A DNA stretch of 64,000 nucleotides, taken from positions 62,001 through 126,000 of the forward strand of contig WLPJ01000003.1 of NCBI GenBank assembly GCA_009698815.1, written 5' to 3'. The DNA is from Actinomycetota bacterium. GTDB lineage: Bacteria; Actinomycetota; Actinomycetes; Nanopelagicales; Nanopelagicaceae. Positions 27,134-45,180 of this stretch are shown here, piece by piece. The notes beneath the pieces are model-generated. The model had not been told where the DNA came from, made no database searches, and saw only the letters and a list, made by a program, of their open reading frames with translations. Numbering within the stretch: the stretch's first letter is position 1; every line of letters begins with the position of its first letter. The position numbers and the translations under genes are program-made.

Positions 27134-27306
27134 CACTGCACACTTCTTCAGGAGTAACTCTCTAGAGGATGCGTGCGAATATTAGCGGAGTTTCCGACTC
27201 TCGTAATGCCACGTATTGCTTGCGGCATCACCATTTCAACCTAGATTTGTGAAGTTCTCGAGAGGTTTTGCTAGTCTACTTAGAGTTCGCCGAAGAAGGG
27301 ATGGAT

Positions 27307-28425: not shown

Positions 28426-29303
28426 AGCAGCCCAAGTATTTGCTTGGCGCGTTTTACCATTGCTTCATCAACTAATGAGCCATCAACAAGAATCGCTCCT
28501 AATTTTTGATCTCGCTCGCTCCAACGTTCGATTACGCGAGCGGCCCAATCTTTCTCATCGACGTTTGCCTGAAAACTCTCTTCAACAATTGCGAGCTGAT
28601 CTGGATGGATACAAAGTTTTCCACCAAAACCCATCTTGTTAGCAAAGAGTGATCGATCTCGCAACCCTTGCAAATCAGCTACTGCAAAATGAGGTGAATC
28701 AATCGGTGCGCCTAATTGTGAATGCGCGCTTGCTAGCACCACTGCCGCCATTGCCAAATCTGTATTTGGACCAGTCGCTTGATAAGTAACACCAAGATCT
28801 GCATGTAAGTCGGCTGCTCCAAAGGCTAAACGTTTAACGCGATCAGGAATCACAGATGAGTTGAGCAAGTTTAATACACCGGATGTAGATTCGATTAAGC
28901 CGATAACAACCATCGGTGCTTTTACTTTATGTTCATTTTCCAACTTTGAAATTATTTGATCTGCTTCAACTGCGCTGGCACCAGGTGAAAATTTAGGTAA
29001 GACAACCGCATCAACTTGCAATTGCAGTGCTAGTTTAAAATCTTCTGTAAACTCGGCAGAAGTTACTTCGTTAGTTCTTATTAATACCAAAGGACCAGTT
29101 GCAGATCTATTTTCCATGACCGGGGCAACGATCGCTCCCCGAGCAGCCACCTTATTTTCTGGTCTAACAGCATCTTCAAGGTCAATAATCACCGCATCAG
29201 TCTTGGCATCTAAAGCTTTTACAATTCTCTCTGGTCGATCACCAGGAACAAATAGGAATGTACGCGCGCTGAGTAAAGGTGACTTACTCCCCGCCTTATC
29301 CAT
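28422..29303 (-). CDS. CitE-like acyl-CoA lyase (malyl-/citramalyl-CoA lyase type)
   Basis: HpcH/HpaI-CitE superfamily barrel of 293 residues. N-terminal RTFLFVPGDRPERIVKAL, IIDLEDAVRPENK (arginine/aspartate region), the magnesium ligands in GLIESTSGVLN (Glu) and AFGAADLHADLG (Asp), and the C-terminal FGGKLCIHPDQL are diagnostic. No citrate lyase alpha or gamma subunits are nearby, so it is a stand-alone lyase of (S)-malyl-CoA, citramalyl-CoA or beta-methylmalyl-CoA type. It is the last gene of the peptide/methylaspartate operon, one base overlapping the dipeptidase gene, and faces the CoA-transferase. That context favours citramalyl-CoA cleavage to acetyl-CoA and pyruvate (inference). Confidence 0.8.
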   Translation of the reverse strand: MDKAGSKSPLLSARTFLFVPGDRPERIVKALDAKTDAVIIDLEDAVRPENKVAARGAIVAPVMENRSATGPLVLIRTNEVTSAEFTEDFKLALQLQVDAVVLPKFSPGASAVEADQIISKLENEHKVKAPMVVIGLIESTSGVLNLLNSSVIPDRVKRLAFGAADLHADLGVTYQATGPNTDLAMAAVVLASAHSQLGAPIDSPHFAVADLQGLRDRSLFANKMGFGGKLCIHPDQLAIVEESFQANVDEKDWAARVIERWSERDQKLGAILVDGSLVDEAMVKRAKQILGLL

Positions 29304-30493
29304 TATTTAACCCAGATTCCTTCTAGTGCGCGCAAGATATTCCCGCCAAGTATCGCAGCGATATCTTTATCAGAGAAGCCATTTTTGACTAGCCAGCCAG
29401 CGATATTCCAGAAATTCTCGGTTGGATTTTCTAACCCATCGACATATTTAACCCTCTCAAATTTGGGGGCTTCGCTGAAAGCGGTGCTCAATAGGTGCGA
29501 GAAGACTGTATGGAGACCAACATGGTCGCCATACAAAGTGTCTGGGCCAAAAGCGACATGTTCGATCCCAACAAGGTCGATGCAGTACATCAAGTGATCC
29601 ATAACTGAATCTATTGAATGCTGTGGATGTGCTTTTGAAAGAGTTGTGTGAGGAGCCGCTGACATTCCGATAACTCCCCCGGTATCTGCAACAGCCTTTA
29701 AAACATCATCTGACTTCATTCGCTTGATCGGCCAAATAGCTTTTGCTCCAGCGTGAGTCATAAAGACTGGCTTCGTGCTTACTTTGCAGGCATCAATGCC
29801 GGTTTGATCGGATGAGTGCGAGATATCAACTGCCATTCCAAGTTGATTCATACGAGTGACACAGCGACGACCAAAATCGGTTAGCCCACCATCGACATCT
29901 TCATTTAAACCTGATCCAAGGGAATTTGAATCTGAGTAAGCGATACCTATCTGACGAATACCAAGTCCGTAAAGAACATCAAGGCGATCGATCTCGTTTT
30001 CAATTGGTGTTGATGCTTCAAGACCAAAGACAAATCCAACTTTGCCGGCTTTTTTGGCATAATGAATATCTTCTACGGTTCGAATAACAATTACGTCACC
30101 TTGGTGTGCGATATCTGCTTGGCGCATTCCGATATCTGTAATGATGTCGAGCCAGCGCCACGGTGCATTCCCTGTAACGCAGGCGGTTCCGTCCATCATA
30201 TTGTCGAATATCACCGTCATGCCAGATTCCTTTACGCCTGCAAAAGCAGTGTGCTGTCGACCTGTTCTGTTGTATTCAGGAGTCTGGCGCATGTCATTTG
30301 GAAAACGAACCGGGTGATCATGCAAACTTATTGTGATGTTATCTTGCATCAGTTTTTCAGCTCGGGTTTTTTCCTCTGGCTTTAATTCGCCTTTATACGC
30401 TGGAACACGACCAAATTCTGGGGCAAGTTCAATATCGGTGAAGTCTTGTCCTTCAGGCAAATAACTATAAGAAGTGTAAGGTTTTTTAGCCAT
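29303..30493 (-). CDS. M19 (renal-dipeptidase-type) membrane dipeptidase family protein
   Basis: Binuclear zinc dipeptidase family whose members often cleave dipeptides with a D-residue at the C-terminal side. 396 residues, no signal peptide or lipobox. Seen are bridging Glu in VFGLEAS, His in VDISHSS, His in VFMTHAGAKA, and GVIGMSAAP with FGPDTLYGDH near the end. The first metal motif reads SLHDHP (H58, H60), whereas most M19 enzymes have H-x-D, so the site may be atypical. About 50 extra N-terminal residues precede the barrel. Located between M20 and CitE-like genes in the operon. Confidence 0.82.
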   Translation of the reverse strand: MAKKPYTSYSYLPEGQDFTDIELAPEFGRVPAYKGELKPEEKTRAEKLMQDNITISLHDHPVRFPNDMRQTPEYNRTGRQHTAFAGVKESGMTVIFDNMMDGTACVTGNAPWRWLDIITDIGMRQADIAHQGDVIVIRTVEDIHYAKKAGKVGFVFGLEASTPIENEIDRLDVLYGLGIRQIGIAYSDSNSLGSGLNEDVDGGLTDFGRRCVTRMNQLGMAVDISHSSDQTGIDACKVSTKPVFMTHAGAKAIWPIKRMKSDDVLKAVADTGGVIGMSAAPHTTLSKAHPQHSIDSVMDHLMYCIDLVGIEHVAFGPDTLYGDHVGLHTVFSHLLSTAFSEAPKFERVKYVDGLENPTENFWNIAGWLVKNGFSDKDIAAILGGNILRALEGIWVK

Positions 30494-30494
30494 T

Positions 30495-31859
30495 TTACTT
30501 TCCTACAATCGCTAGTCGGTGTGGGCCATCTGCAAGCAAGCGCCAGAGAACTTCCCAGGCACGCATACCTTCTCGCAAACGGCGAATACGCATAAATTCA
30601 TTTGGTGCATGGTGCTTTTCATCTGCTGTTGCAAATGAGAAGAACATTGTTTTGATTCCAAGTGCTTCTTCAAAGAGCGCTGTTGCGGGAAGAGTTCCAC
30701 CAATGACTGCGAGTAGAACTTTCTCTCCTGGATAAACCGTCTCTAGCGCAACTGTCGCCGCGCGATTAGCAGGATGATCTGCCGGAATTGTGTAAGCCGG
30801 AACTCCACCATGATCTGCACGCATTGAAACTTGCACTCCATCTAACTTTATATTTTCTAGATGAGTTTTAATTGCACTAATAACTTGCGCTGGATCCTGT
30901 CCCGGGACCAAGCGGCAAGAGATATGTGCTGTCGCTACATGAGGGATAACGGTGTACTTACCGCCAGCCTTCAATCCATTAATCTCAAGAGTTGGGCGCT
31001 CCCATAAGCGTTCAATCGTGGTGTAACCACTTTCTCCAAAAAGTTCTTTAAGTCCGAGCGTTTTCATATATTCGGCATCGCTAAATTGCACTGCAGCAAT
31101 TTCTGCACGCCGTTCTGAAGTCATTTGTGGAATTCCATCGTAGAATCCAGCAACTGCAATTGATCCATCTGAATTATGTAATCCAGCAAGAATCTCCGAA
31201 AGTGCGTGAACGGGATTAGCCACAGTTCCACCGTAGCGACCTGAGTGAAGATCTTCTTTTGCTCCAGAGACTTCTAAATCAAAAGTAACCAAGCCTTTTG
31301 AGGCAATCGATAGCGAAGGTTCGGATGGACGCCACATTGCACCATCGGCTGAAATAACTAGATCTGCTGCAAGTTCTTGCGCATGAGCACGCACATATTC
31401 AGGAAGGTTTGGGCTTCCAATCTCTTCTTCACCTTCAAAGAGAAATTTAACATTGAGCGGAAGTTTTCCTTCTTGTTCAAGGAATGCTTGAGCAACTTTG
31501 AGAACAATAAGCACAGGCCCTTTGTCATCCGTAACTCCACGACCGCGAATAACGTCACCGTCACGAATTAACTTAAAGGGAGGCGTCTTCCATTCAGCAA
31601 GATCTCCAGTTGGTTGCACGTCATAGTGCCCATAAACCAAGATCGTTGGGGATCCTGGTGCTCCGAGCCATTCTCCCCGGACAACAGGGTGACCTGATGT
31701 TGGCAGAACTCGACCGTTTGCAAATTTGAGTTGATCAGCAAGCCACTGTGCCGCTTCCTGCATAGTCTCTGCTGACGCATCTCGACTGACAGATGGAATT
31801 TCAACATAAGTGGTTAGCTCATCAATGTAACGATCATCGCTTGCATCAAAGTTCAACAT
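30495..31859 (-). CDS. M20-family dipeptidase (CNDP/beta-Ala-Xaa type)
   Basis: Binuclear zinc exopeptidase, 454 residues from ATG 31859 (an in-frame TTG precedes it). Metal and catalytic residues in order: VYGHYDVQP (H78, D80), GRGVTDDKGP (D111), FEGEEEIGSPN (catalytic Glu144, ligand Glu145), ISADGAMW (Asp), and a C-terminal His in DEKHHAPNE. The lid domain is inserted from about 200 to 330. Relatives hydrolyse dipeptides including carnosine-type and Cys-Gly. Cytoplasmic. Gap of six bases to the methylaspartate ammonia-lyase gene and one base to the M19 gene. Confidence 0.88.
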   Translation of the reverse strand: MLNFDASDDRYIDELTTYVEIPSVSRDASAETMQEAAQWLADQLKFANGRVLPTSGHPVVRGEWLGAPGSPTILVYGHYDVQPTGDLAEWKTPPFKLIRDGDVIRGRGVTDDKGPVLIVLKVAQAFLEQEGKLPLNVKFLFEGEEEIGSPNLPEYVRAHAQELAADLVISADGAMWRPSEPSLSIASKGLVTFDLEVSGAKEDLHSGRYGGTVANPVHALSEILAGLHNSDGSIAVAGFYDGIPQMTSERRAEIAAVQFSDAEYMKTLGLKELFGESGYTTIERLWERPTLEINGLKAGGKYTVIPHVATAHISCRLVPGQDPAQVISAIKTHLENIKLDGVQVSMRADHGGVPAYTIPADHPANRAATVALETVYPGEKVLLAVIGGTLPATALFEEALGIKTMFFSFATADEKHHAPNEFMRIRRLREGMRAWEVLWRLLADGPHRLAIVGK

Positions 31860-31865
31860 CAACTT

Positions 31866-33107
31866 CTACTTTCTGTTAGCAATAAGTGCCGCAGTTCGCG
31901 ACATCTCATTTCCAACGATCATCATTCCTTCATCAACACCCATACCTGGTTTAGCTAAAATTTGGATCGTTCCGCACGCCATAGCAATATGTGCGCTAAC
32001 TTGCGCAGTTCTATCAGTTTCGTTACATGTTCCGCCACAGTAACCAGCAAGACCACTTTTACGAACAAGTAACAACGCCTCTATAGTGTTATTGATTCCG
32101 CCCAAATCCGGCATCTTTACGTGAATAATATCTGCAGCCTTTGCCTCAACAAAGAGTTGGATATCTTCTAGAGTGTTACACCACTCATCAACTGAGATCT
32201 CAACTTTCGAACCACGTGTGGCAAGTGCATCACGAAGTGCTTTAGAGACCTTTACTTGTCCTGCGACGCTTTCTCCATCGATTACATGTTCCACGCGCAG
32301 ACTAAATGGAGCCGCGATTTTGCTGACTTCGACTAAGTAATCGGCGCATTTATCGATATCGCCATCAAAGGCTTGTCCAATAGTTCCGTAAACATCAAAT
32401 TGCAGAACTGGGTTGTATGTAGATTTTTTTCGTATCTCTAAAATGCGATTGCGAACCCACAAGACATAATCTTTGAAAATTTGACCATCGAGGCCAAGTT
32501 TGGTCTCAAGGTTATTGATCAAGCCATGAGGCAAAACACCTGACTCTTTGAGAATCATCTTATCTACGTTGGAATATCGATCGTCACCTGACTGTGTGAA
32601 CATAGGCACTACTGAGATATCAATACCAGTCTGATACTCATCTTTAATAACTTCTGCCATCGTTATCGATTTCGACTTTGCTACCGCATCTAAGAGAGCC
32701 TGCGTTAGGCCATAACGTATGCCAGCTGAAATCCGCTTACCGCTAACTTCGAATTTATCGATTTCTAAAGCAATACTGCGGAAATCTTGTATCACTCTGC
32801 CAATTAAGATCGGAGTAATACTTGATTCGATAACTTTTTTCGCCTCGATTGCGTTGAAAATGGGATCACGACCACCGACGCCTGAATATTGAACAACTGC
32901 ACAATCGCCATGAGCGACTTCGCCGCTATCTAGAACCAATAAAACTGAGAGCGACTGCCCGGGTTCTCGAATTGATTTAAAGCCCGGAGTTATTGGCGTG
33001 CCAACATAATCAAAACCATCGTGCTCTGCGCCAGCTAAAATTGCCGCTTGGTCATCAACATAGAAACCTGTCAGCCCTGGAACACATAGAACATCGACAA
33101 TTTTCAT
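31866..33107 (-). CDS. mal: Methylaspartate ammonia-lyase
   Basis: Enolase-superfamily enzyme that deaminates L-threo-3-methylaspartate to mesaconate. 413 residues, the length I recall for clostridial enzymes, and alignable by eye from MKIVDVLC to the end without gaps. Every key residue falls at its classical number: His194 (VLPHGLINN), metal ligands Asp238 (LQFDVYGTIG), Glu273 (LRVEHV) and Asp307 (ISVDEWCNT), general base Lys331 (HVKMPDLGG) and Cys361 (GGTCNETDR). It sits in mid-operon between an SDR and an M20 dipeptidase. No glutamate mutase gene (usual source of 3-methylaspartate) is in the window. A function on 3-methylaspartate is therefore well supported; the origin of the substrate is open. 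Confidence 0.93.
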   Translation of the reverse strand: MKIVDVLCVPGLTGFYVDDQAAILAGAEHDGFDYVGTPITPGFKSIREPGQSLSVLLVLDSGEVAHGDCAVVQYSGVGGRDPIFNAIEAKKVIESSITPILIGRVIQDFRSIALEIDKFEVSGKRISAGIRYGLTQALLDAVAKSKSITMAEVIKDEYQTGIDISVVPMFTQSGDDRYSNVDKMILKESGVLPHGLINNLETKLGLDGQIFKDYVLWVRNRILEIRKKSTYNPVLQFDVYGTIGQAFDGDIDKCADYLVEVSKIAAPFSLRVEHVIDGESVAGQVKVSKALRDALATRGSKVEISVDEWCNTLEDIQLFVEAKAADIIHVKMPDLGGINNTIEALLLVRKSGLAGYCGGTCNETDRTAQVSAHIAMACGTIQILAKPGMGVDEGMMIVGNEMSRTAALIANRK

Positions 33108-33111
33108 TTAT

Positions 33112-33924
33112 TTAATTACTCGCCTCTCCATAATTAAAGGTAGTTACACATCCACCGTCAACGGTGACAATTGACCCAGTCATAAATGAGGCATTTGCAG
33201 AAGAGAGAAACACAGCAACATTTCCGACTTCAATTGGTTGGGCTTGGCGACCGAGCGGTTGCATTCCGGCTGCTTTTTCACGGCGAGCGGTGGCTTCTTT
33301 AAACTGCTCGTCTGTAAGCGTAGGTCCGCGGCGACCAAGACTTGTATCGATATAGCCTGGGCAAATGGCGTTGACGCGAATATTGTCTGGGCCATAATCA
33401 ACTGCCAGTTGGCGAGTCAGGTTAATAACTCCACCCTTTGTCGCGCAGTAAGCCGGAGCTTTTGGGGCGCCAATTAATCCGTAAGTTGAAGCGATATTAA
33501 CGATGCTTCCGCCACCGGCTTTAAGAAAGTGCGGGATTGTGTGCTTGGTCATGAAGAATGTTCCAAGCAGGTTCACATCTAGAACTCGTGAAAACTCCGC
33601 TGCTTCAACTTCATGTATTCGTTTTTGAGCACCACCGATACCGGCATTATTGATAAGAATATCAAGACCACCAAATGCTGAAATAGTGGCAGCGACAACT
33701 GCTTTTACCTGTTCTTCATTGGCAATATCTGCCTCAACAAATATCGCGCTTCCTCCTGCATCAGTAATTTCACTTACTGTACGAGCCCCATCAGCAGCGA
33801 TTGTGTCAGAGACGCATACCTTTGCTCCAGCTTGAGCAAGTGCTTTAGCTGTTGCGCGGCCGATTCCATTTCCAGACCCAGTTACTATCGCAACTTTTCC
33901 ATCTAGTGCAATTGATGTTGACAT
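33112..33924 (-). CDS. SDR-family oxidoreductase
   Basis: Classical short-chain dehydrogenase/reductase of 270 residues from the ATG at 33924, two bases after the preceding stop (an upstream GTG overlapping that gene is unlikely). Cofactor motif TGSGNGIG (about 15-22), aspartate after beta-2 (VSDT) suggesting NAD(H), NNAG, and the active site Ser...Tyr-x-x-x-Lys in IASTYGLIGAPKAPAYCATK. The C-terminal FMTGSIVTVDGG closes the Rossmann fold. Substrate unknown; its place between D-aminopeptidase and methylaspartate ammonia-lyase hints at a hydroxy- or oxo-acid from the same catabolic route. Confidence 0.85.
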   Translation of the reverse strand: MSTSIALDGKVAIVTGSGNGIGRATAKALAQAGAKVCVSDTIAADGARTVSEITDAGGSAIFVEADIANEEQVKAVVAATISAFGGLDILINNAGIGGAQKRIHEVEAAEFSRVLDVNLLGTFFMTKHTIPHFLKAGGGSIVNIASTYGLIGAPKAPAYCATKGGVINLTRQLAVDYGPDNIRVNAICPGYIDTSLGRRGPTLTDEQFKEATARREKAAGMQPLGRQAQPIEVGNVAVFLSSANASFMTGSIVTVDGGCVTTFNYGEASN

Positions 33925-33926
33925 TA

Positions 33927-34757
33927 TTAGCTCCACTCAACTATTGAACGAGTAAGAATTACTGTAGTTATAAAGCGTCGATATAAGGCAAGTGGATCGG
34001 CATCAGTGAGTGCCACCTTTTTTGTTGCAGTCTTTACATTTCCAGGTATCCAAGCAGCCATATCTGCGAAATCATTATTGTGAAATGTAATCTCTAAAGT
34101 TGCCGGCAGTTTAATCGAAGGCGCTGGAATTGATTTTAGATCTACAAGTGACTCCTTTGCCTTAGCAAAGATCAAATCGCATGCTTGAGTTGGGTGCATG
34201 CTGTCGGCAGCAAAGCGAGTAATACTCTTCTTTACAACAGCTGCTTTTACTTTTGGTGACCATTGCTGTGTCTCAACTTCAGTGGTCTCGTCTCCTGTCA
34301 CCAAGACAATTGGAACTCCGTAAGCCTGTGCGACAAGGGCGTTGATGCCGGCTTCAGAGACAACCTCACCATTTAGAGTGATGTCAGAAATTGCACGTGG
34401 GTTGTAAGTATGTGAAAGAACTGATGCTTCTGAACTCATCGAACCGTGATAAGAGATAAAGAAAATGGCATCAAATGAGTCATCAAGTCCTTGCATCATG
34501 TACATGGGCTTGTGCTTGCCAGATAAATAGCGAGCATTGCCTTCCAGCGTGTGCGGACGAAGGTTCTGCATAGAAGAATGTGAATCATTGACAAGGAATT
34601 CAGTTGCGCCAGCAGACATTGCACCCTTGATAGATGCATTGACTTCATTCTGAAGAAGTTCTCGGTAATACCCGTATTCTGGGTTACCCGGAATACATTG
34701 GCTCCAGTCAACAACTCCAGCGGTGCCTTCCATATCTGATGAAATAAAAATTTTCAT
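33927..34757 (-). CDS. dppA: D-aminopeptidase, DppA/M55 family
   Basis: Zinc peptidase that removes N-terminal D-residues such as D-Ala from short peptides; forms decamers in Bacillus subtilis. 276 residues with metal ligands at positions matching that enzyme: Asp8 and Glu10 (ISSDMEG), His60 (VNDSHSSM), His104 (ISYHGSM) and Glu131 or Glu135 (NGEVVSEAGINA). Position 115 is Ser, where I recall a Cys proposed as nucleophile in B. subtilis. As in the B. subtilis dpp operon it is co-transcribed with a dipeptide ABC importer. It overlaps the upstream asparaginase-like gene by four bases. Confidence 0.9.
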   Translation of the reverse strand: MKIFISSDMEGTAGVVDWSQCIPGNPEYGYYRELLQNEVNASIKGAMSAGATEFLVNDSHSSMQNLRPHTLEGNARYLSGKHKPMYMMQGLDDSFDAIFFISYHGSMSSEASVLSHTYNPRAISDITLNGEVVSEAGINALVAQAYGVPIVLVTGDETTEVETQQWSPKVKAAVVKKSITRFAADSMHPTQACDLIFAKAKESLVDLKSIPAPSIKLPATLEITFHNNDFADMAAWIPGNVKTATKKVALTDADPLALYRRFITTVILTRSIVEWS

Positions 34758-35713
34758 ATCGCTCTCCTTGGGTGAAATTCGGGAGCAGTTGAGTGCTCGG
34801 TCATTAGTGTGTATGTAGATCCTTCCATGCCTGCTGCTCCACCGTGTCGACCATCTTGGGTCAACGATAGGCAGCGCAGTTCGGCACGAAAATCATCGAG
34901 TAGCGAGCGCGCATCTAAGAGCGCATTAGCGCATGCGGTTTGAGGATCTTGTCCGGCACGCAAATTTTCAACAACACTTCGTGCGGTTCCTCCACGGATA
35001 GCAAGTTCTCCACGTCCAGTACAAGCGGCTGCGCCGTAACGAATATCTGCATAATTACCGGCGCCTGCGATTGCTGAATCTCCAACGCGGCCTGGGTGCT
35101 TATATGGATATCCACTTGTACTGACTCCACAAACGAGTTCGCCCGATTGATCTACGGCGATGATGTTGATTGTCCCCCAAGGCCCATCGTGTGGGGCCAT
35201 ACGCTTAAGCAGTTCTAACGTTGCTAAGCGATATCTTTCATCACCTGAAGTGGCTTTGGTGTTTTCGCCTTCGATAGATTCTGAGTTAACACTTTCCAGT
35301 TGTTTAAGCCAGAGCGCTTTAGATTCTGGTGTAATTAGATCTGCTGTTGGAAAACCAAGATACTTGGCAAAATCTTCTGCACCTTCTCCAACAAGTATTG
35401 AGTGTTGTGGAAGTTCTTCAAGAACTTTACGTGCGATTGAAATTGGGTTGGGATAATTTTTCACCGCTGCTACTGCGCCAAAAGCACGAGTAGAACCAAT
35501 CATGATTGACGCATCGAGCTCGACTATTCCGCGAGCATTTGGAAGTCCACTGGTACCGATGTAATGGTCTTCTAAATTATCTTCACAGAGCCTAAGTCCG
35601 CGTTCTACTGCATCTAGTGCACTTCCGCCTGCTCGGAGAATCTCCATCGCAGCAGGAATTCCTGCTTCACTTCGTTCGCTTCCAATAATTATTGGACTGA
35701 ACTTAACGGCCAC
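34754..35713 (-). CDS. Ntn-hydrolase of the isoaspartyl peptidase/glycosylasparaginase family
   Basis: Self-cleaving N-terminal nucleophile hydrolase acting on beta-aspartyl bonds or asparagine side chains. 319 residues from GTG. The predicted autocleavage site and nucleophile Thr181 lie in GPWGTINIIAVD, followed by VCGVSTSGYPYKHPGRVGDS, AGAGNYAD and GAAACTGRGE, the family's substrate-binding loops. The residue before the Thr is Gly instead of the usual Asp, so processing could differ. No signal peptide. Family members cleave beta-Asp dipeptides (for example from cyanophycin) or GlcNAc-Asn; the operon context favours a beta-aspartyl peptide. Confidence 0.8.
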   Translation of the reverse strand: MAVKFSPIIIGSERSEAGIPAAMEILRAGGSALDAVERGLRLCEDNLEDHYIGTSGLPNARGIVELDASIMIGSTRAFGAVAAVKNYPNPISIARKVLEELPQHSILVGEGAEDFAKYLGFPTADLITPESKALWLKQLESVNSESIEGENTKATSGDERYRLATLELLKRMAPHDGPWGTINIIAVDQSGELVCGVSTSGYPYKHPGRVGDSAIAGAGNYADIRYGAAACTGRGELAIRGGTARSVVENLRAGQDPQTACANALLDARSLLDDFRAELRCLSLTQDGRHGGAAGMEGSTYTLMTEHSTAPEFHPRRAI

Positions 35714-35737: not shown

Positions 35738-36703
35738 TTAAACCAGGAGGCACGCTGCCTGATGGGTTCCTTTCACTAGCTTTAAATCTGGATCTGCGGT
35801 TGCACAAGCATCGATCGCCACTGGGCAACGTCCCCGGAAGCGACAGCCAACCAGCGCGCTTTTAATTGATTGGAGCTCACCAGATGGCGCAGATGAAATC
35901 TGCGATCCCGAAGTCATCTTTGGGACAGAACTCAAAAGTAGCTTTGTGTACGGGTGCGATGGATTATTGAATACTTGCTCTGTTGGACCAACTTCAACAA
36001 TTCTCCCAAGATACATAACTGCAATTCGGTCGCTGACTTGGCGCACAACTGCAATGTTGTGCGAGATAAATAGCATAGTCAGCCCAAGGTCGCGCTTTAG
36101 GTCCATAAGTAGATTAACGATTGAGGCTTGCACAGAAACATCGAGTGCAGATACAACTTCGTCTGCGATAAGAATCTTGGGTTCAAGCGCTAGGGCACGC
36201 GCAATGCCAATACGTTGACGTTGCCCTCCAGAGAATTGCCGTGGAAAAGAATTAAGTGAATCTTTAGGAAGTCCCACAATTGAAAGTAACTCTTGGCAAC
36301 GCTCTTCTACTTTGTCGGCAGGCACCAGTTTATGAAAATTTATAGCCTCTCGTAATACTTGGCCAACGGTCATACGTGGATTTAAAGATGAGAATGGATC
36401 TTGGAAGACCATCTGGACACTTCTGCGTTCTTCTAGAGTGCGCTCTTCACTAACAACTTTGCCATTTAACGCAATCGTTCCGGCGTTTATGTTGTAGAGA
36501 CCAACGAGAGTTCTTCCAAGTGTGGATTTACCACAACCTGATTCACCAACTAAGCCAAGTGTTTCACCCACTCTTAAATCAAGGCTTACTCCATCTACTG
36601 CAGGAACGCTAAAGGCTTCTTTTTTACGTAGGCGGTCAACAATAGATTGCCGCTTTGTAAAGTGCTTAACGACGTCTTCAGCGGCAATTACTGTTTGGTT
36701 CAT
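35738..36703 (-). CDS. dppF: Dipeptide/oligopeptide ABC importer ATPase (DppF type)
   Basis: One of two ATPases of the peptide importer. 321 residues from ATG 36703, which overlaps the TGA of the preceding ATPase gene (ATGA); a longer frame from 36739 is discounted. Walker A GESGCGKSTLGRTL, Q-loop VFQDPFSSLNPRMTVG, signature FSGGQRQRIGIARALALEP, Walker B ILIADEVVSALDVS. The C-terminal oligopeptide-ABC extension with four cysteines (CRFRGRCPVAIDACATADP) is present, as in DppF/OppF. Gap of 24 bases to the asparaginase-like gene. Confidence 0.93.
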   Translation of the reverse strand: MNQTVIAAEDVVKHFTKRQSIVDRLRKKEAFSVPAVDGVSLDLRVGETLGLVGESGCGKSTLGRTLVGLYNINAGTIALNGKVVSEERTLEERRSVQMVFQDPFSSLNPRMTVGQVLREAINFHKLVPADKVEERCQELLSIVGLPKDSLNSFPRQFSGGQRQRIGIARALALEPKILIADEVVSALDVSVQASIVNLLMDLKRDLGLTMLFISHNIAVVRQVSDRIAVMYLGRIVEVGPTEQVFNNPSHPYTKLLLSSVPKMTSGSQISSAPSGELQSIKSALVGCRFRGRCPVAIDACATADPDLKLVKGTHQAACLLV

Positions 36704-37710
36704 CGAGTTACACCATTCTTGGATTCTTCTGCTGCCCAATTAACATGTTCCGCAGAGTTAAAACATGCACTTTGAGAATTTGCGATAGGTAGAAGTTCAG
36801 GTTCAGATACTGAGCACTGATCTGTTGCGCTAAAGCATCTCGGAGTAAATGGGCAGCCAATAACTTCTTGAGTTAAGTTGGGAGCTTCACCTGAAATTGT
36901 AAAGAGACGATGCACAGATTGATCTGGATCTGGAGCTGCTTTAAGAAGTGAGAATGTATATGGATGAGTTGGTACGCTAAAAGTTTTCTTTACAGATCCT
37001 GATTCGACAAAGCGCCCGGCATACATCACCCGAATGTCATCGCAGAGTTCGTTCACGACGGCAAGGTCGTGGGTAACGAAAACTATTCCGAGGCCAGTAT
37101 TAGTACGAAGTTCACTGAGTAGTCGAAGCACTTGGGCTTGAATAGTTACGTCGAGGGCGGTCGTTGGTTCATCACAGAAAAGAATTTTTGGACTACCAGA
37201 GAGAGCAATTGAAATTGCTACGCGTTGACGTAATCCTCCTGAGAGTTGATGTGGGTAGAGTCCATATCGAGATTCACCGTCTGTAATTCCCACTTTCTCC
37301 ATCAATGAGAGGGCTATTGCTTTTGACTCCTCTTTACTTTTACCTAGACGGTAACGAGGTACTTCTGCGATCTGTTCACCAATTTTTATAACTGGATTAA
37401 GAGCTGCAATAGCATCTTGGAAAATCATCCCTGTGTTATGGGAAAGTAGCGCGCGACGACTTTTATTATCTAGAGTCGCAATATCTTTACCTGCTACAAA
37501 AATTTTACCGGAAGAGATACGCGCATTGTTGGGCAAAAGGCCGAGTATCGCTTTAAGGGTGATGGATTTACCGCTACCTGATTCGCCAACGATGCCAATT
37601 GAGTCGCCCGGATTGATATCAAGTGAGACACCACGAATTGCTTTTAGTAAGCCTCGATCGGTCTTTATTTCTACAGTTAAGTTTTCTACAGAAATTAGTG
37701 GAGTACTCAT
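36700..37710 (-). CDS. dppD: Dipeptide/oligopeptide ABC importer ATPase (DppD type)
   Basis: Second ATPase of the importer, 336 residues. Walker A GESGSGKSITLKAI, Q-loop IFQDAIAALNPVIKIG, signature LSGGLRQRVAISIALSGSP and Walker B ILFCDEPTTALDVT. The C-terminal peptide-importer extension holds the cysteine cluster CPFTPRCFSATDQC. Directly abuts the DppC gene (no spacer). Confidence 0.93.
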   Translation of the reverse strand: MSTPLISVENLTVEIKTDRGLLKAIRGVSLDINPGDSIGIVGESGSGKSITLKAILGLLPNNARISSGKIFVAGKDIATLDNKSRRALLSHNTGMIFQDAIAALNPVIKIGEQIAEVPRYRLGKSKEESKAIALSLMEKVGITDGESRYGLYPHQLSGGLRQRVAISIALSGSPKILFCDEPTTALDVTIQAQVLRLLSELRTNTGLGIVFVTHDLAVVNELCDDIRVMYAGRFVESGSVKKTFSVPTHPYTFSLLKAAPDPDQSVHRLFTISGEAPNLTQEVIGCPFTPRCFSATDQCSVSEPELLPIANSQSACFNSAEHVNWAAEESKNGVTR

Positions 37711-38508
37711 TTAGCGCTCCAAACGTGCAACTAGGCCGTCACCAATTAGTGAAAGAGAGAATCCAACATAGACAACCATCAAACCTGGAAGGGTCGCCAA
37801 CCACCATTGCTCGCTAATGTATCCCTGACCTTCTTGGATCATTGAACCCCATTCGGCTGTTGGTACTGGAACTCCGAGTCCGAGGTAACCAAGTGAAACT
37901 ATGGCCAAGATACTCAAGACAATATCGCTCATCGCAAAAACGATTGATTGTGAAATTACATTTGGCAACATATGGCGGCGAAGAATTCTCGAAGATGGAA
38001 GACCGGTCAGGCGCGCTGCATGAATGTAATCCTGTTCTTTTGCCACAAGCACATTTGCGCGGACGATACGACAGTAAGCCACCCATCCCACCAATGTGAT
38101 CGCAATGATGATGCTCTTGATTCCGGGTCCAAAAATAAACACAAGTGCGATTGCGAGAACATAAAAAGGAAAGGCAATGAAGGTATCGACAACTCGCATA
38201 ATGATGGAGTCTGTTTTGCCGCCACGCCAGCCAGTTAAAAGCCCAAGTGAAACACCGATAATGAATGGCAAAACAACTGCTAGAAGACCAATGGCCAGAT
38301 CTATCCGCGCACCATAGATCAGTCGAGTAAACACGTCGCGACCGAGTGGATCTGTTCCTAGCCAATGTTGTGATGTTGGACCAAGAAGGGTGTTTACATA
38401 ATCTGGTTCGTTTGGATCAAAGCTAGTGATCAGCGGCGCAAATATCGCTGCAAGTACCAGTGCACTAAGAAGTCCAACACCGACGTAAAGTGTTTTTGAG
38501 GATTTCAC
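37711..38508 (-). CDS. dppC: Peptide ABC importer permease (DppC type)
   Basis: Membrane subunit with an N-terminal helix (about 8-28) and a five-helix binding-protein-dependent transport core. 265 residues from GTG, overlapping the dppB stop (GTGA). Marks are LGTDPLGRDVFTRLIYGARIDL (about 49-70) and the EAA-like loop YIHAARLTGLPSSRILRRHMLPNV with the cytoplasmic ATPase-contact glycine. Confidence 0.92.
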   Translation of the reverse strand: MKSSKTLYVGVGLLSALVLAAIFAPLITSFDPNEPDYVNTLLGPTSQHWLGTDPLGRDVFTRLIYGARIDLAIGLLAVVLPFIIGVSLGLLTGWRGGKTDSIIMRVVDTFIAFPFYVLAIALVFIFGPGIKSIIIAITLVGWVAYCRIVRANVLVAKEQDYIHAARLTGLPSSRILRRHMLPNVISQSIVFAMSDIVLSILAIVSLGYLGLGVPVPTAEWGSMIQEGQGYISEQWWLATLPGLMVVYVGFSLSLIGDGLVARLER

Positions 38509-39446
38509 TTCATTACCACCCGTGGATCAAGTGCGGCATGTATCAAGTCAGTGATGAGGCTGACTAATACAACGATAAAAGCGAAATACAAAGTGACGCC
38601 CTGCACGATTGGGTAATCTCGCCGTGCGATTGAATCGATCATTAGTGAACCTGTTCCAGAAATTGCAAAGACACGTTCCACCACGACCATCGATCCAACA
38701 AGGTATGCAATATTGATACCAAGAACTGTGACAGAGGCAATAATTGCGTTACGAAGTACATGTACGCGCGTAATACGTGCTGTAGAAATACCCTTTGCTC
38801 GAGCAGTTAAAACGTAATCAGAATCTAAAATTTCCAGCATGCTGGCACGAAGGCTGCGAATCAATATTGGAGATAACAAGATTGCGATTGTAAGCGATGG
38901 TAAAAATATCGAATGAATTCGCTCAGGGAAGGTCTCGCCAAAACCACTTACTGGAAAGAGTGGGAAGCGCAGGCCAAGTAAAAGAATTAGCATTACGCCA
39001 ACCCATACTTGAGGCATTCCAAGCCCAACGATCGGGATTGCGCGCACGAGTTGATCGCGGAAGGCTCCACGCTTTGAAGCGGCCAAGATCGAAAGTGGCA
39101 GCGCGATCAATATTGAAAGAAGTACGCCACCGAACAAGAGCATTCCCGTTTCAGGTAAGCGTCCCAAGATTAAGCTGGTGACAGATTCGCGGTTGTAGAA
39201 ACTGGTGCCCAGCGAACCGTGAAGTAAATCCCAAATAAAAGCAAAGTACTGAACCAGTAGCGGACGATCAATTCCGAGTTTTTTATTAAGGATCTTTACT
39301 CTTGCATCGGTCGCATTTTGACCAAGTAAAACGTCCGCTGGATCACCCGGAATTAAGTGAACAATTGCGAATACTGCGATGGATATGCCAAAGAGAACGG
39401 GCAACATCTGAAGGAGTCTTTTACCTACATAGGTCAAATAACTCAC
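38505..39446 (-). CDS. dppB: Peptide ABC importer permease (DppB type)
   Basis: 313-residue permease starting at GTG. N-terminal helix with the DppB hallmark MLPVLFGISIAVFAIVHLIPGDPAD (split here as FGISIAVF and HLIPGDPAD), six helices in all, and the EAA-like loop YVLTARAKGISTARITRVHVLRN near 205-227. It follows the binding-protein gene after 89 bases that contain a strong hairpin. Confidence 0.92.
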   Translation of the reverse strand: MSYLTYVGKRLLQMLPVLFGISIAVFAIVHLIPGDPADVLLGQNATDARVKILNKKLGIDRPLLVQYFAFIWDLLHGSLGTSFYNRESVTSLILGRLPETGMLLFGGVLLSILIALPLSILAASKRGAFRDQLVRAIPIVGLGMPQVWVGVMLILLLGLRFPLFPVSGFGETFPERIHSIFLPSLTIAILLSPILIRSLRASMLEILDSDYVLTARAKGISTARITRVHVLRNAIIASVTVLGINIAYLVGSMVVVERVFAISGTGSLMIDSIARRDYPIVQGVTLYFAFIVVLVSLITDLIHAALDPRVVMK

Positions 39447-39535: not shown

Positions 39536-41062
39536 TTAACCCTTCTTAACGTCTTCCATTTTGTAGCTGTAGAGAGGGTTCACGAAGAAACCGGTGATCT
39601 TATTGGTCCATGCGTATAGGTAAGGTGGGTTGATGGTGAATGCCATGAAGGCATCATCAGCAACTTGCTTCTGTACGAATGTATAAGCAGCGGCACGAAC
39701 CTTAGGATCAACGTTTGTCTGACCCTTCTTGATCGCTTCATTCACTTTCTTATTGTTGTAATTTGTGAAGTAAGCGCTGGTTCCACCTTCAGGTGTCAAA
39801 CCAAATGTCAATAACTGATCTGGGTCAACGATATCCATTGTCCAACCAGTAATTGTCATTTCATATTCCATCGCCTTTTGGGTTACGCGCTGAACTGATG
39901 GCTCCTGCGCTTTGATGGTCATTGTGATACCAATCTTCTTCAAAGAAGCTTGGAGGATTGAAGCAGTTGCTTCTTGTTTCTTGTCACCACCACGGATCAA
40001 AAGTTCTAATTTAAGACCCTTCTTGTACTTGCTCTTCGCAAGTTCAGCAGCTGCCTTCTTCAGATCGAACTGAACTCCTGGGGAGTTCTTGTCATAGTAG
40101 TTAACACCAGGTGGAAGGAATGAGTTTGATGGAGTTCCTAGACCTGAGTAAACAACTTTGTTGATCGCTGCGCGGTCAACTGCGTATGAAATCGCACGAC
40201 GTACGTTTACATCTGATAGCGCAGGAACCTTGTGGTTGAAGGCTAGGTAGTTTGATGCAGCAGCTGGGAAAATACCAACCTTGATATTTGGAGCGGCCTG
40301 CAGCGACTTGATATTAGTAGCTGGTGGCTCTTCATTGATATCTGCTTGTCCGCCCTTGAGCATGAACTCACGGGTGTTGTCATCTGCTACGTACTTCCAG
40401 GTTACAGAGTTTAGATAAGGCTTGCCTGGCTGCCAGTAACTCTTGTTGGCAACAAGCTTGATTTCAGTTCCTGGTGTCCATTTATCAAAGACAAATGCAC
40501 CGGTACCAATTGGGTCCTTAAAGAATTCAGCTGCAGTCTTGCCGCCGAAGTCTTTTGGCATTATTGAGTTGCTAAAGCAAGCCAAGTCCGCAAGCAATGG
40601 AGCCCATTGGAACTTTGTCTTGATTACAACTGTGTCTGTTGACGGGGCTTCAACGCTTCCAATTGCCTCGTTAATAAATCCCCAGCCTGTTCCAGCTGTT
40701 GCACGATCAAGTGAGAACTTAACGTCAGCGGCAGTCAATGGAGATCCATTGCTGAACTTAACGTCAGTACGAAGCTTGAATGTCCATGTGAGTCCATCTT
40801 TTGATGTTGTGTGGCTCTTAGCCAACCATGGCTCTACACCTTTACCGTCTTTCGTTCCACGGTATAGACCTTCAAAAACTTGCTGTTGAATAAACAGAGA
40901 GTCATTCTGTGCAAGGTCTGGATCGAATGTTGCAAAATCTTGAGAACGAACAAATATCAAATCACCAGTCGGTGACGCATTTGCTGATAGCGGAACTAGA
41001 ACCGTTGCTGCAACAGTTAGCGCTGCAAAAAAAGCACCTAGCGTTTTCTTTCTTGAAACCAT
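39536..41062 (-). CDS. Peptide ABC importer substrate-binding protein, family 5
   Basis: 508 residues. Sec signal peptide (about 1-29, cleavage after ANA) with no lipobox cysteine, which is unusual for an actinobacterial solute-binding protein normally tethered as a lipoprotein. SBP family 5 signature near RTDVKFSNGSPLTAADVKFSLDRA, and the C-terminal TGWTMDIVDPDQLLTF region. Binds di- or oligopeptides outside the membrane and delivers them to DppBCDF. First gene of the 12-gene operon; GGAG about ten bases before the ATG, and an inverted repeat lies further upstream. Confidence 0.92.
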   Translation of the reverse strand: MVSRKKTLGAFFAALTVAATVLVPLSANASPTGDLIFVRSQDFATFDPDLAQNDSLFIQQQVFEGLYRGTKDGKGVEPWLAKSHTTSKDGLTWTFKLRTDVKFSNGSPLTAADVKFSLDRATAGTGWGFINEAIGSVEAPSTDTVVIKTKFQWAPLLADLACFSNSIMPKDFGGKTAAEFFKDPIGTGAFVFDKWTPGTEIKLVANKSYWQPGKPYLNSVTWKYVADDNTREFMLKGGQADINEEPPATNIKSLQAAPNIKVGIFPAAASNYLAFNHKVPALSDVNVRRAISYAVDRAAINKVVYSGLGTPSNSFLPPGVNYYDKNSPGVQFDLKKAAAELAKSKYKKGLKLELLIRGGDKKQEATASILQASLKKIGITMTIKAQEPSVQRVTQKAMEYEMTITGWTMDIVDPDQLLTFGLTPEGGTSAYFTNYNNKKVNEAIKKGQTNVDPKVRAAAYTFVQKQVADDAFMAFTINPPYLYAWTNKITGFFVNPLYSYKMEDVKKG

Positions 41063-41241: not shown

Positions 41242-41934
41242 CTAGAAGAGGGAGTGCCCGCCATCTATTGATAAACACTGTCCAGTAACCCAGTCACTTT
41301 CCTGACTTGTGAAAAACGAAACGCCATTTGCAATATCTTCTGCCTTACCCAAACGCCTTGTTGCAATCCCCGCCTTCAATTTCTCTTGGCCTTCAGCGCC
41401 ATAACTTTCCCATTGGGCAATAGTTGAAGGATTTGAGAGAACAAATCCAGGCGCAATGCAGTTCACGGTAATTCCATACTGGCCAAGCTCATGAGCCATT
41501 TGTCTGGTGAAGCCGATTTGAGCAGCTTTTGCTGTCGCATATGCCTGAATCCCAGTCAGGCTCACGCTCCTACCAGCACCGGATGAGATATTGACGATTC
41601 GGCCCCAGCCGTTGCTTTTCATCCCTTTAATAACTGCGCGTGTGGATAGAAACGTTGTCTGCAAGTTCGCATCAAAAATCACTTTCCAGGCATCATCAGT
41701 GACTTCATCAAGTGGTTTATGCGTCTGTCCTACAACGCCACCTGCGCAATTAACCAGAATGTCCACTTGGCCGATTTTTTGAAAATACTCTTTTACAGCC
41801 TCAGGGTTAGAAAGATCGGCTTGATCGCGATCAACACCATGGACAGTATGTCCACTTTTGAGAAGGGACTCTGCTATCGCACTTCCCATACCGTGCGCTG
41901 TACCGGTGACTACTGCAACTCTTTTAATGTCCAT
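41242..41934 (-). CDS. SDR-family oxidoreductase (FabG-like)
   Basis: 230-residue classical SDR: TGTAHGMGSAIAESL (10-24), aspartate in GVDRD after beta-2, NCAGGVVG in place of NNAG, and the active-site Ser with Tyr-x-x-x-Lys in ISSGAGRSVSLTGIQAYATAK. C-terminal WVTGQCLSIDGGHS. It lies upstream of the peptide operon on the same strand, separated by 179 bases, and diverges from the fusion gene at 42054. Substrate unknown. Confidence 0.83.
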   Translation of the reverse strand: MDIKRVAVVTGTAHGMGSAIAESLLKSGHTVHGVDRDQADLSNPEAVKEYFQKIGQVDILVNCAGGVVGQTHKPLDEVTDDAWKVIFDANLQTTFLSTRAVIKGMKSNGWGRIVNISSGAGRSVSLTGIQAYATAKAAQIGFTRQMAHELGQYGITVNCIAPGFVLSNPSTIAQWESYGAEGQEKLKAGIATRRLGKAEDIANGVSFFTSQESDWVTGQCLSIDGGHSLF

Positions 41935-42053
41935 ACCTCAATGTAACCACTAATAATCTAAATGAGGAAGAGGGCTATGTATTTACAAAGTTAATCCCTA
42001 CTGTTGCCTTATCTCTGAACTTGCCATGAGGTAAAGATGAAAAGGTGAATTTG

Positions 42054-44183
42054 ATGCAATTAACAATTATTGGTGCAGGTGCAATCGGTGGCACCATCGG
42101 CGCTCACATGATTCGTGCTGGTCATGATGTTGTTTTTTGCGATGTCGATGCAGATCATGTGAAAGCAATCAATGAATTTGGGATTTCTATCGAAGGACCA
42201 GTAGAAAACTTCACTGTTAAAGCCAAGGCGATACTGCCTGCAGATCTACCTGCAAAACTCCACAATGTAGCTATCGCAGTTAAGAGTCACCACACTAAAA
42301 GTGCTGCGGAACTTCTTCGCGGTCGGCTTGCACCAGATGGATTTGTCGTGACCTTTCAAAATGGTCTAACTGCCAGTGATATCGCCAGCGTCGTAGGTGC
42401 CGAAAATATAATTGTTTCTTTTGTAAATTTTGGAGCAGATTACTTGGCTCCTGGAAAGATAATGCAGGGAAATATTGGGGCATTCCGCGTAGGTGAATTA
42501 GTTGGTAATGAAATTACCCCGCGCGTTAAAGAACTTGTGGCAGCGCTTCCTTACGCGCAAGCAACTGAAAATATACTCGGATTTCTTTGGGGCAAAGAAG
42601 CCTACGGAGCAATGCTTTATGCGGGTGCGACTTCCGACCTTTCAATTGCAGATCACCTCGAGGAACCAAAATATCGACCACTTATGTTGGCAATCGCTCG
42701 CGAAGTGCTGGCGCAAGCCCCAGTTAAGCCTGAAGGTTTCAATGGATTTGAACCAGATGACCTTGTCGCTTCACTTGATCGCCTCGTTGTATTTAATCGT
42801 GCATCAGCAAAGACGCATAGTGGTATTTATCGCGATTTAACGGTCCGCAAAAGAAAGACAGAAGTTAGCGACCTGCTTCGTGACCTAAAGGGGCCACTAA
42901 CTAATTATGTTGGAGAAATTATCTACGCGATAGAACGCGGAGAGCGCATATGTGAAACGGCAAATTTAGATCTACTTGCAACTTATGAACGCGCACTTCG
43001 CCTGGGAGTGCCTCTTAACGCAATCTCCTCAATTCTTTCTGCTCCAGCGCGCGCTTCGACTGGGCCACTGCACGGAATGGCAATAGCGGTCAAAGATATT
43101 ATTGATGTGAAGGGTCAACCTCGCGGCAATGGAAACCCTGCAGATATGAAATCAAAACCTGCAACTGAAGATGCACCAGTAATTAAATCACTTCGCGCAT
43201 TAGGTGCGGATATTTTTGCAACTACTTCACTATTGGAATATGCCGCAGGCGCGACCCATCCCGATGTACCTGAAGCAATGAATCCATACAATTCAAAACG
43301 AACTGCTGGTGGTTCAAGTGGAGGTTCGGCATCTCTTGTTGGAGCCGGAGTTTGTTCGGCAGCTCTTGGCACGGATACCGGAGGTTCCATCCGGATTCCT
43401 GCGCATTACTGCGCCGTCGTTGGATTTAAACCTAGTTACAACTCGATTTCATTAAACGGTGTTACTCCATTATCTCCAACCTTTGATCACGTCGGACTTC
43501 TGACAAAAGATGTGGCCACCACGACTAGAGTTTTTTCAGCGCTCATGGGTAAAGCTGAGGATCAAACACAAACTCAAATTTCTGGTTTGAAAATTGGCAT
43601 TATTGCATCGCACTTTGATTTACCAGAACTTGAAAAAGAGGTTGCGGATTCTGTCAAAGCCTCTTTGGAAAAACTGAAATCTCTTGGTGCATCGGTCGTT
43701 GAATTAGACGGTGCAGTCTTTTCTGAACTTGATAAAACTTTTGGAACAATGTTGCATTTTGAAGCCTGGCAAGTTCATGGTGCAAAAGTCACTTCAGACC
43801 CTGCTCATTTCGGGCCAGAAACTTTGAGACTGTTCCAAGCTGCAAAAGATATAACTAAGGAGCAATACAAGAGCGCATCTGATCGGTGCAATGAATTACT
43901 TCCATCTGCTGCAAAACTTTATGAATCTATTGATGTGCTAATTACTCCTGCTGCGCCATATGTTGCGCCAGCCACCACGCCTCCCATTGATACTCCGGCG
44001 GGAGCAGTGGAGGGCGTATACACAGGAATTTTTAATATCACTGGTGACCCTGCAATCGTGATTCCAAGTAGTTTAAATTCAGAAGGACTCCCTATTGGGA
44101 TTCAATTAGCGACCATTAAAGGTAGTGACTTCCGTTTGCTATCTATCGCGAGAGCGGTTGAATCTGTACTGGATTTCAAATAA
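42054..44183 (+). CDS. Fusion of ketopantoate-reductase-like and amidase-signature domains
   Basis: One frame of 709 residues (ATG 42054, AAAAGG about eight bases upstream; a GTG three codons earlier is possible). Residues 1 to about 318 form an ApbA/PanE-type dehydrogenase: Rossmann IIGAGAIGGTIGAHMIRAGHD near the start (given here in part), NGLTASD, and the reductase Lys181 in FLWGKEAYGAML, where the usual Asn four residues on is missing. Residues about 328-709 form an amidase with the full Ser-cisSer-Lys triad: Lys347 (AVKDIIDVKG), Ser421/422 (GGSSGGSA) and Ser445 (GTDTGGSIRIPA). There is no linker. Neither domain looks decayed. Function unknown; an amidase releasing an acid that the reductase then handles, or the reverse, is a guess. 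Confidence 0.85.
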   Translation: MQLTIIGAGAIGGTIGAHMIRAGHDVVFCDVDADHVKAINEFGISIEGPVENFTVKAKAILPADLPAKLHNVAIAVKSHHTKSAAELLRGRLAPDGFVVTFQNGLTASDIASVVGAENIIVSFVNFGADYLAPGKIMQGNIGAFRVGELVGNEITPRVKELVAALPYAQATENILGFLWGKEAYGAMLYAGATSDLSIADHLEEPKYRPLMLAIAREVLAQAPVKPEGFNGFEPDDLVASLDRLVVFNRASAKTHSGIYRDLTVRKRKTEVSDLLRDLKGPLTNYVGEIIYAIERGERICETANLDLLATYERALRLGVPLNAISSILSAPARASTGPLHGMAIAVKDIIDVKGQPRGNGNPADMKSKPATEDAPVIKSLRALGADIFATTSLLEYAAGATHPDVPEAMNPYNSKRTAGGSSGGSASLVGAGVCSAALGTDTGGSIRIPAHYCAVVGFKPSYNSISLNGVTPLSPTFDHVGLLTKDVATTTRVFSALMGKAEDQTQTQISGLKIGIIASHFDLPELEKEVADSVKASLEKLKSLGASVVELDGAVFSELDKTFGTMLHFEAWQVHGAKVTSDPAHFGPETLRLFQAAKDITKEQYKSASDRCNELLPSAAKLYESIDVLITPAAPYVAPATTPPIDTPAGAVEGVYTGIFNITGDPAIVIPSSLNSEGLPIGIQLATIKGSDFRLLSIARAVESVLDFK

Positions 44184-44188
44184 AAAAT

Positions 44189-44230
44189 GCCGATCCCTAA
44201 GCCGCAAAGCTTAGGAATCGGCAAATTTTT
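44189..44230. terminator. Bidirectional intrinsic terminator
   Basis: 14-base stem GCCGATCCCTAAGC / GCTTAGGAATCGGC with one mismatch and the loop CGCAAA. It is followed by AAATTTTT on the plus side and preceded by TAAAAAAT, giving a U-tract on the minus side as well. It serves the fusion gene (plus) and the hydrolase gene ending at 44247 (minus). Confidence 0.92.
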
Positions 44231-44246
44231 CCCTTAATTAATCTGC

Positions 44247-45101
44247 TTACTTTGCTACTAAATGTGGAAGGTAGTCAGCGATAAATTTACGCTGAACCTC
44301 TTGAAATAAGTCATACTCTTCAAATTGCGGAGAGTGACCTGACTTCTCGAAAATAACCAAGCGAGAGTTCGGAATTCCATCGGCAATTATTTGCGCAGAT
44401 GAAACCGGTGTAACCCAGTCAGTGCGGCCCACGGTCACCAGAGTTGGAGCCTGAATTTTGTGCAGTATCGGCTTCAAATCATAATTTGGTGAATTATGTG
44501 TAAAGCAATAGTTGTGAGCTTCATGGTGGTAGAAACCTGCTTCAACTCGGGCGGCTGATGTCACTGGATCGTATGTGAAATCGTAAAGTGGAATTAGTTC
44601 GGCCCAACAGGCTTTCAGATCTGCATCATCGCGAATTTGGCCTGTCCAATAACGATTGAAGTTATCCCAATTTATTTCTACGCGATCTTGATTTCGAGCA
44701 TTTTCTTCAAGAGTTTTGAAATTATCTGAGTCTGCAGAGGTGTCACGCAGAAGAACTGCCTCTGTGTGTTCTGGATAGCGAACTGCATACTCAAGTGAAA
44801 TAAATCCACCGTATGAACCGCCCGCAACAACAATCTTTTCAGCGCCAATCCATTTACGTAGACCATCAACATCTGCGGCCCATTGTTCGTGTGAATAAGG
44901 CCCAACGATTTCGCTATTGCCACAACCACGGGCATCAAAAGCGATTACTTGGAAAATATCTGCTAGCGGACCATATGTTGCTTTTGGCTCGGCAAGTGAA
45001 CCTATTCCTCCACCGCCATGATGAGAGATCAAAACAGGCTTTCCTTCACCTTTACCAATTACCTCGACGTTTAATTTAGCGCCATTTATTTCGACGATCA
45101 T
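44247..45101 (-). CDS. Alpha/beta hydrolase, proline-iminopeptidase-like
   Basis: 284 residues from ATG 45101 (GGGGAGAG eight to ten bases upstream); a frame reaching 45167 adds 22 unlikely residues. The oxyanion HHGGGGIG, AFDARGCGNSE, the nucleophile elbow GGSYGG (about 97-102), Asp in TVGRTDWVTP and His in EKSGHSPQFEE form the hydrolase set. DARGCGNS and the lid resemble proline iminopeptidases, which remove N-terminal proline from peptides, but haloalkane or ester hydrolases share these motifs. No signal peptide. Its leader may fold over the ribosome binding site. Confidence 0.8.
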   Translation of the reverse strand: MIVEINGAKLNVEVIGKGEGKPVLISHHGGGGIGSLAEPKATYGPLADIFQVIAFDARGCGNSEIVGPYSHEQWAADVDGLRKWIGAEKIVVAGGSYGGFISLEYAVRYPEHTEAVLLRDTSADSDNFKTLEENARNQDRVEINWDNFNRYWTGQIRDDADLKACWAELIPLYDFTYDPVTSAARVEAGFYHHEAHNYCFTHNSPNYDLKPILHKIQAPTLVTVGRTDWVTPVSSAQIIADGIPNSRLVIFEKSGHSPQFEEYDLFQEVQRKFIADYLPHLVAK

Positions 45102-45103
45102 CT

Positions 45104-45152
45104 TTACTCTCCCCTTAGTTTGCATACAAGAATTCTTATGTTCTTGGAGAGT
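45104..45152 (-). promoter_or_regulatory. Leader hairpin that can mask the hydrolase ribosome binding site
   Basis: On the minus-strand RNA, ACTCTCC (45152-45146) is complementary to GGAGAGT (45112-45106), which contains the Shine-Dalgarno. Between them lies a second palindrome, CAAGAA-N8-TTCTTG (45127-45146), one base overlapping. The arrangement could hide the ribosome site or act as an operator in DNA. Confidence 0.35.
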
Positions 45153-45180
45153 AACTTGTTTAATCAATAAATATAAGGGA

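Follow-up and report, generated by a model that had tools for sequence, protein, structure and literature searches.

What does a bacterium do with a ketopantoate reductase (KPR)-like dehydrogenase and an amidase that are joined in a single polypeptide? The question is raised by an actinobacterial gene located on the plus strand at positions 42054-44183 of the window, the whole stretch of 64,000 nucleotides that was analysed. The gene represents a new architecture built from known families. As the preliminary description had stated, no characterised enzyme of this kind is known: searches of the accessible literature returned no description of a dehydrogenase-amidase architecture and nothing relevant on KPR with creatininase, on methylaspartate ammonia-lyase (MAL) with amidase, or on MAL with microcystin. 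Table 1 presents an overview of the gene and its surroundings.

Table 1. Features of the fusion gene and of the neighbouring cluster, in window coordinates.
Feature	Position	Strand	Basis or remark
Class III CoA-transferase, mesaconate/succinate type	27268-28425	+	Under cut-offs
HpcH/HpaI lyase	28422-29303	-	Closest to RipC citramalyl-CoA lyase, under RipC cut-off
M19 membrane-dipeptidase family	29303-30493	-	
M20 dipeptidase	30495-31862	-	
MAL, His variant at position 329	31866-33107	-	
SDR oxidoreductase SDR1	33112-33936	-	
M55 D-aminopeptidase family	33927-34757	-	
Type-2 asparaginase/isoaspartyl peptidase family	34754-35713	-	
Two dipeptide-type ABC ATPases (35738-36739, 36700-37710)	35738-37710	-	Sequence; syntenic in relatives
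Two ABC permeases (37711-38508, 38505-39446)	37711-39446	-	
Dipeptide-type ABC solute-binding protein (SBP_bac_5)	39536-41062	-	Pfam
SDR oxidoreductase SDR2, divergent neighbour	41242-41934	-	Ortholog adjoins stand-alone dehydrogenase in Deinococcus and Rhizobium
Shine-Dalgarno-like AAAGG	42041-42045	+	Sequence; 8 nt upstream of ATG 42054
KPR-like dehydrogenase domain, residues 1-305	42054-42968	+	GAGAIGG, Asp30/Asp32 after strand 2, Lys181, Ser256, Glu270; no Asn at +4/+8
Amidase-signature domain, residues 306-709	42969-44183	+	Lys347, Ser421, Ser445
Hairpin, 16 pairs and T tract	44188-44223	.	Between two convergent genes; scan scores minus strand
Alpha/beta hydrolase, convergent neighbour	44247-45167	-	Conserved in cluster

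Two enzyme families in one frame

From the ATG at 42054 to the TAA at 44181-44183, the frame encodes 709 amino acids without an internal stop and is preceded by its own ribosome site, both as first read from the DNA. The start position is common to the relatives of the gene. Pfam places ApbA at residues 4-149 (94.3 bits versus a cut-off of 22.2) and Amidase (PF01425) at residues 333-696 (246.6 bits versus a gathering cut-off of 27), in agreement with the initial assignment of an ApbA/PanE-like domain marked by GAGAIGG and a complete amidase with Lys347, Ser421/422 and Ser445. Stand-alone dehydrogenases stop near NLDLL (residues 304-308) and stand-alone amidases start near TYERA (310-314). Since the ends and starts of the stand-alone homologues meet at this point, the junction is free of a linker. 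AlphaFold2 gave models of too low quality to assess channelling, with a mean pLDDT of 43 for the whole fusion, using an alignment of three sequences only, and of 55 for the KPR domain alone.

Turning to the amidase half, the catalytic Lys347, the cis-Ser Ser421 and the nucleophile Ser445 are invariant in the alignments, and Ser422 is also kept. The Ser-cisSer-Lys site is as complete as in amidase-signature enzymes such as indoleacetamide hydrolase, GatA and malonamidase E2 (1ock), the last being among the closest solved enzymes at 143 bits. Unlike these enzymes, the fusion carries an N-terminal dehydrogenase and lies far under every NCBIfam equivalog cut-off. The named models (GatA, indoleacetamide hydrolase, AtzE and allophanate hydrolase) all score below threshold, and the best amidase model reaches 228.5 bits versus the 391 required.

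Downstream of the gene, the hairpin that had been described as a clean terminator is indeed present, but the genes on either side of it converge. Since its score in the scan is for the minus strand, it serves the convergent alpha/beta hydrolase gene at least equally. Upstream, an alignment of the divergent intergenic region gave no convincing conserved operator.

The peptide cluster and its ammonia-lyase

The fusion diverges, as had been noted, from a peptide operon region, with a dipeptide importer and peptidases on the minus strand. Its description as a separate regulated gene does not hold for its function, as the fusion behaves as the divergent member of the cluster. Its presence follows that of a MAL with an altered active site, and this link is a strong genomic clue to its function. 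Gene order is mostly kept across the other fused genomes. Most fused genomes of the home family also have an AstE/aspartoacylase-like gene between the fusion and the alpha/beta hydrolase (e.g. L025:12220-13140), which the window is without.

The MAL of the window scores 541.2 bits with TIGR01502, versus a cut-off of 286.15. Among 201 genomes of the home family, the fusion occurs in nine (the window genome and eight others), and a MAL above cut-off occurs in the identical nine; the Fisher p of 8e-16 for this association should not be read as a real probability, since the genomes share ancestry and the genes are linked. Within the class (296 genomes), all five fusion genomes have a MAL above 530 bits. 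The order of G332 holds the fusion in 14 of 200 genomes, 13 of which have a MAL above 530 bits roughly 6-9 kb away on the same contig. G890 has the fusion and no MAL match anywhere in its genome; there (L146), the fusion is accompanied by the transporter, SDR2, the isoaspartyl peptidase and the alpha/beta hydrolase. Four further genomes (G344, G416, G838 and G914) have a MAL of about 434-446 bits and no fusion.

Position 329 is occupied in known MAL by Gln, which is in contact with the C4 carboxylate and also stabilises the enolate (PMC7241714). In Clostridium numbering, and counting only the fusion-linked copies that are readable at this position, residue 329 is His in every fusion-linked MAL, that of the window included, and Gln in non-fusion MAL. 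By sequence, the fusion-linked enzymes are a distinct MAL subfamily. Some of them also have His at position 170 (loci: window 31866-33107, L061, L104 and L129-L140). In two other actinobacteria, a different MAL with Gln329, a class III CoA-transferase and a stand-alone amidase are encoded one after the other (L107:6871-10857 and L108:4999-9219). Next to them lie genes for a peptide ABC transporter and for an OSBS/racemase-like member of the enolase superfamily, and there is no dehydrogenase fusion.

The closest described system is the 3-methylaspartate ammonia-lyase pathway of Clostridium and Citrobacter and of the haloarchaeal methylaspartate cycle. The MAL of the window has 57% identity to this system and retains the catalytic Lys331, His194 and the metal ligands, and the cluster likewise encodes enzymes leading from mesaconate to CoA esters. 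Together the cluster genes are predicted to be able to run from 3-methylaspartate through mesaconate, mesaconyl-CoA and citramalyl-CoA to acetyl-CoA and pyruvate. The full set of MAL, CaiB, MaoC and HpcH is found in the cluster of G014 (L096), where the MaoC-type hydratase is closest to RipB and lies beside MAL and the CoA-transferase. The final steps to acetyl-CoA and pyruvate are the same as in itaconate degradation (PMC12290011). Unlike the described pathway, that of the window has His329 in its MAL, and peptide import and peptidases replace glutamate as the source. A search of this genome for the glutamate mutase E chain found none, so the MAL substrate is probably imported rather than made from glutamate. 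Two distant genomes have a run of glutamine-synthetase-like, amidohydrolase-like and SDR genes, as read from sequence, beside the MAL cluster (L097:2795-7603 and L095:6940-11100).

The genomic setting of importer, peptidases and MAL is well supported, and the fusion probably catalyses steps in a so far undescribed route by which unusual peptides are broken down. The chances are about even that it is a cytoplasmic bifunctional catabolic enzyme of this peptide-catabolism cluster, feeding the methylaspartase-mesaconate route from imported peptides. More tentatively, the route may be an undescribed one that degrades a beta-substituted aspartate imported within peptides or as acyl conjugates. The residue would be 3-methylaspartate or an analogue of it, of the kind present in certain peptides of cyanobacteria and actinobacteria. 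The fusion would make the substrate of the dedicated His329 methylaspartase, and the product would be burned via citramalyl-CoA to acetyl-CoA and pyruvate.

In such a route, imported peptides with a beta-substituted aspartate-type residue would be trimmed by the M55, M19, M20 and isoaspartyl-type peptidases, which suit D- or iso-linked residues. The amidase domain, through its Ser-cisSer-Lys site, may hydrolyse the amide of the small acid that remains. The KPR-like domain, with Lys181, Glu270 and an acidic NAD-type pocket, may oxidise or reduce C2 of the same acid, perhaps with the neighbouring SDR2. The acid altered at C2 would then be the substrate of the His329 MAL, which would release ammonia and mesaconate or an analogue for entry into central metabolism as CoA esters. 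It is plausible that the fusion performs two consecutive reactions; joining the halves would fix their ratio at 1:1 and may allow an unstable 2-oxo intermediate to be handed over. If this is true, freshwater and soil actinobacteria own a dedicated route for peptides that are poorly handled by ordinary peptidases, and MAL gains a role beyond the haloarchaeal methylaspartate cycle and the fermentation of glutamate. Because fusion and MAL are associated, the question of the substrate can be put to the test with purified proteins.

Relatives that carry one half

In four relatives (G022, G192, G071 and G045) the place of the fusion is taken by an amidase on its own, and neither the dehydrogenase nor MAL is found in the genome. 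SDR2, the alpha/beta hydrolase and the transporter are again its neighbours, and three of these contigs extend as far as the M55 and isoaspartyl genes. A tree of the amidases groups the fused copies together, with the four stand-alone copies as their sister group and other amidases apart. The occurrence of the amidase alone at this site indicates that it has no need of the dehydrogenase in that setting. In actinobacteria, the presence of the dehydrogenase tracks that of the His329 MAL, with the amidase step seemingly needed either way.

On plasmids of Deinococcus, Rhizobium and Sulfitobacter, the dehydrogenase is a separate gene. Its usual neighbours are a creatininase-family gene and an ortholog of SDR2, at about 50% in the measured cases, and M20 or M32 peptidases and a peptide importer accompany it. 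An operon of creatininase-family gene, KPR-like dehydrogenase and, usually, SDR is conserved on Deinococcus and alphaproteobacterial megaplasmids (L053, L054, L055, L058, L059, L060, L113 and L114). The encoded proteins, annotated as 'ketopantoate reductase family', share 42-45% identity with the fusion over nearly the whole domain and have in common with it the K-G-(Y/F) site, the KTHSGIWRDLAVRKRKTEVD motif and the neighbours SDR2, M20, AstE and transporter. They differ in being unfused, in being accompanied by creatininase, M32 and RraA, and in having no MAL annotated near them. A separate amidase gene accompanies the separate dehydrogenase in two Deinococcus plasmid clusters, and on two Rhizobium plasmids an amidase gene is found about 20 kb from the dehydrogenase, beside a second importer. 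The presence of both as separate genes in related clusters suggests that the two halves share one functional context and were fused in actinobacteria.

Since no MAL is annotated near the stand-alone dehydrogenase in the Deinococcus and alphaproteobacterial operons, MAL is not the sole context of this enzyme. These operons, the four amidase-only relatives and the MAL-free fusion genome G890 count against the methylaspartate reading, as does the inflation of the co-occurrence counts by shared ancestry and physical linkage.

One alternative is that the halves are functionally independent cluster enzymes that catalyse non-consecutive reactions and were fused only for co-expression or stoichiometry. 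It draws on the amidase that stands alone at the same locus, on the separate and non-adjacent genes of Deinococcus and Rhizobium, and on the unequal evolutionary rates of the two halves: relative to the window copy, dN is 0.11-0.27 for the KPR half versus 0.22-0.48 for the amidase half, with dS at or near saturation. This independence is rather unlikely, as the fusion is intact in 25 genomes, the fused amidases form one tree group against the stand-alone ones, and the junction has zero linker.

The dehydrogenase half and the spread of the fusion

The preliminary description had also pointed out that the dehydrogenase half keeps Lys181 and lacks the usual Asn four residues later. Both points are borne out, and the loss goes further: in the K-x3-N-x3-N motif, Gly185 and Tyr189 replace both Asn residues. 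No fused copy has Asn at Lys+4 or Lys+8, and the canonical row of the alignment (G761) has both. Could the KPR domain have lost catalysis and now serve the amidase by sensing NAD(H) or by forming oligomers? The missing Asn pair would fit such a loss, as would a C-terminal KPR segment that is about nine residues shorter in the fused copies than in stand-alone relatives. However, Lys181, Ser256, Glu270 and the nucleotide-binding glycine motif are invariant across the fused copies, and the KPR domain is better conserved than the amidase domain. The substitution rates indicate purifying selection on both halves. In addition, the Asn residues are missing from the stand-alone Deinococcus and alphaproteobacterial relatives, where there is no amidase in the same chain to regulate, which marks their absence as a trait of the clade rather than a defect. 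A purely regulatory domain is thus improbable.

A further alternative is that the KPR domain is the ketopantoate reductase of pantothenate synthesis and the amidase is incidental. Among the proteins of this genome, the fusion gives the top PanE-type match (114.7 bits), panB is present, and the protein shares with the PanE/ApbA family (PF02558, TIGR00745) the Rossmann motif, the catalytic Lys181 and Glu270. Its best solved relatives, 5ayv and 5hws, are annotated as 2-dehydropantoate 2-reductases. Unlike PanE, the fusion has no ApbA_C match and carries an attached amidase, and an acidic residue takes the place of the expected NADPH-binding Arg. Arg31 occupies the matching position in E. coli PanE, and Asp30 and Asp32 after the second strand suggest NAD over NADP for the fusion. 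The half scores 112.2 bits with the curated NCBIfam model TIGR00745, below the cut-off of 141.35, and since it also lacks both substrate-binding Asn residues, it is not considered to be PanE. The fusion is also absent from nearly all home-family genomes and tied to MAL, and in other actinobacteria IlvC can replace PanE. A role in pantothenate synthesis is very unlikely.

The fused frame is found in 25 actinobacterial genomes from at least three families. Full-length fused relatives in the home family and in L024, where the fusion also occurs, have 68-77% identity; G292 and the genomes in the order of G332 hold more distant copies. A phylum-wide sample of 346 genomes added no fusion, with G733 and G761 having stand-alone frames, and the related-locus search among genome contigs amounts to two relatives only. 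Separate frames in relatives, named at the outset as a sign of a sequencing or assembly joint, occur only where the dehydrogenase is wholly absent or in distant phyla. Such a joint is ruled out for practical purposes by 25 separate genomes, one of which (G825) carries the fusion on a single 8.8-Mb contig, and by the shared frame of both halves in all distant relatives, as checked; nothing was found in its favour, and the gene truly fuses two known enzyme families in one unbroken frame. In G033, a contig end cuts the fusion gene, and codons 1-52 are at one end of a different contig, with MAL next to them (L027 and L090).
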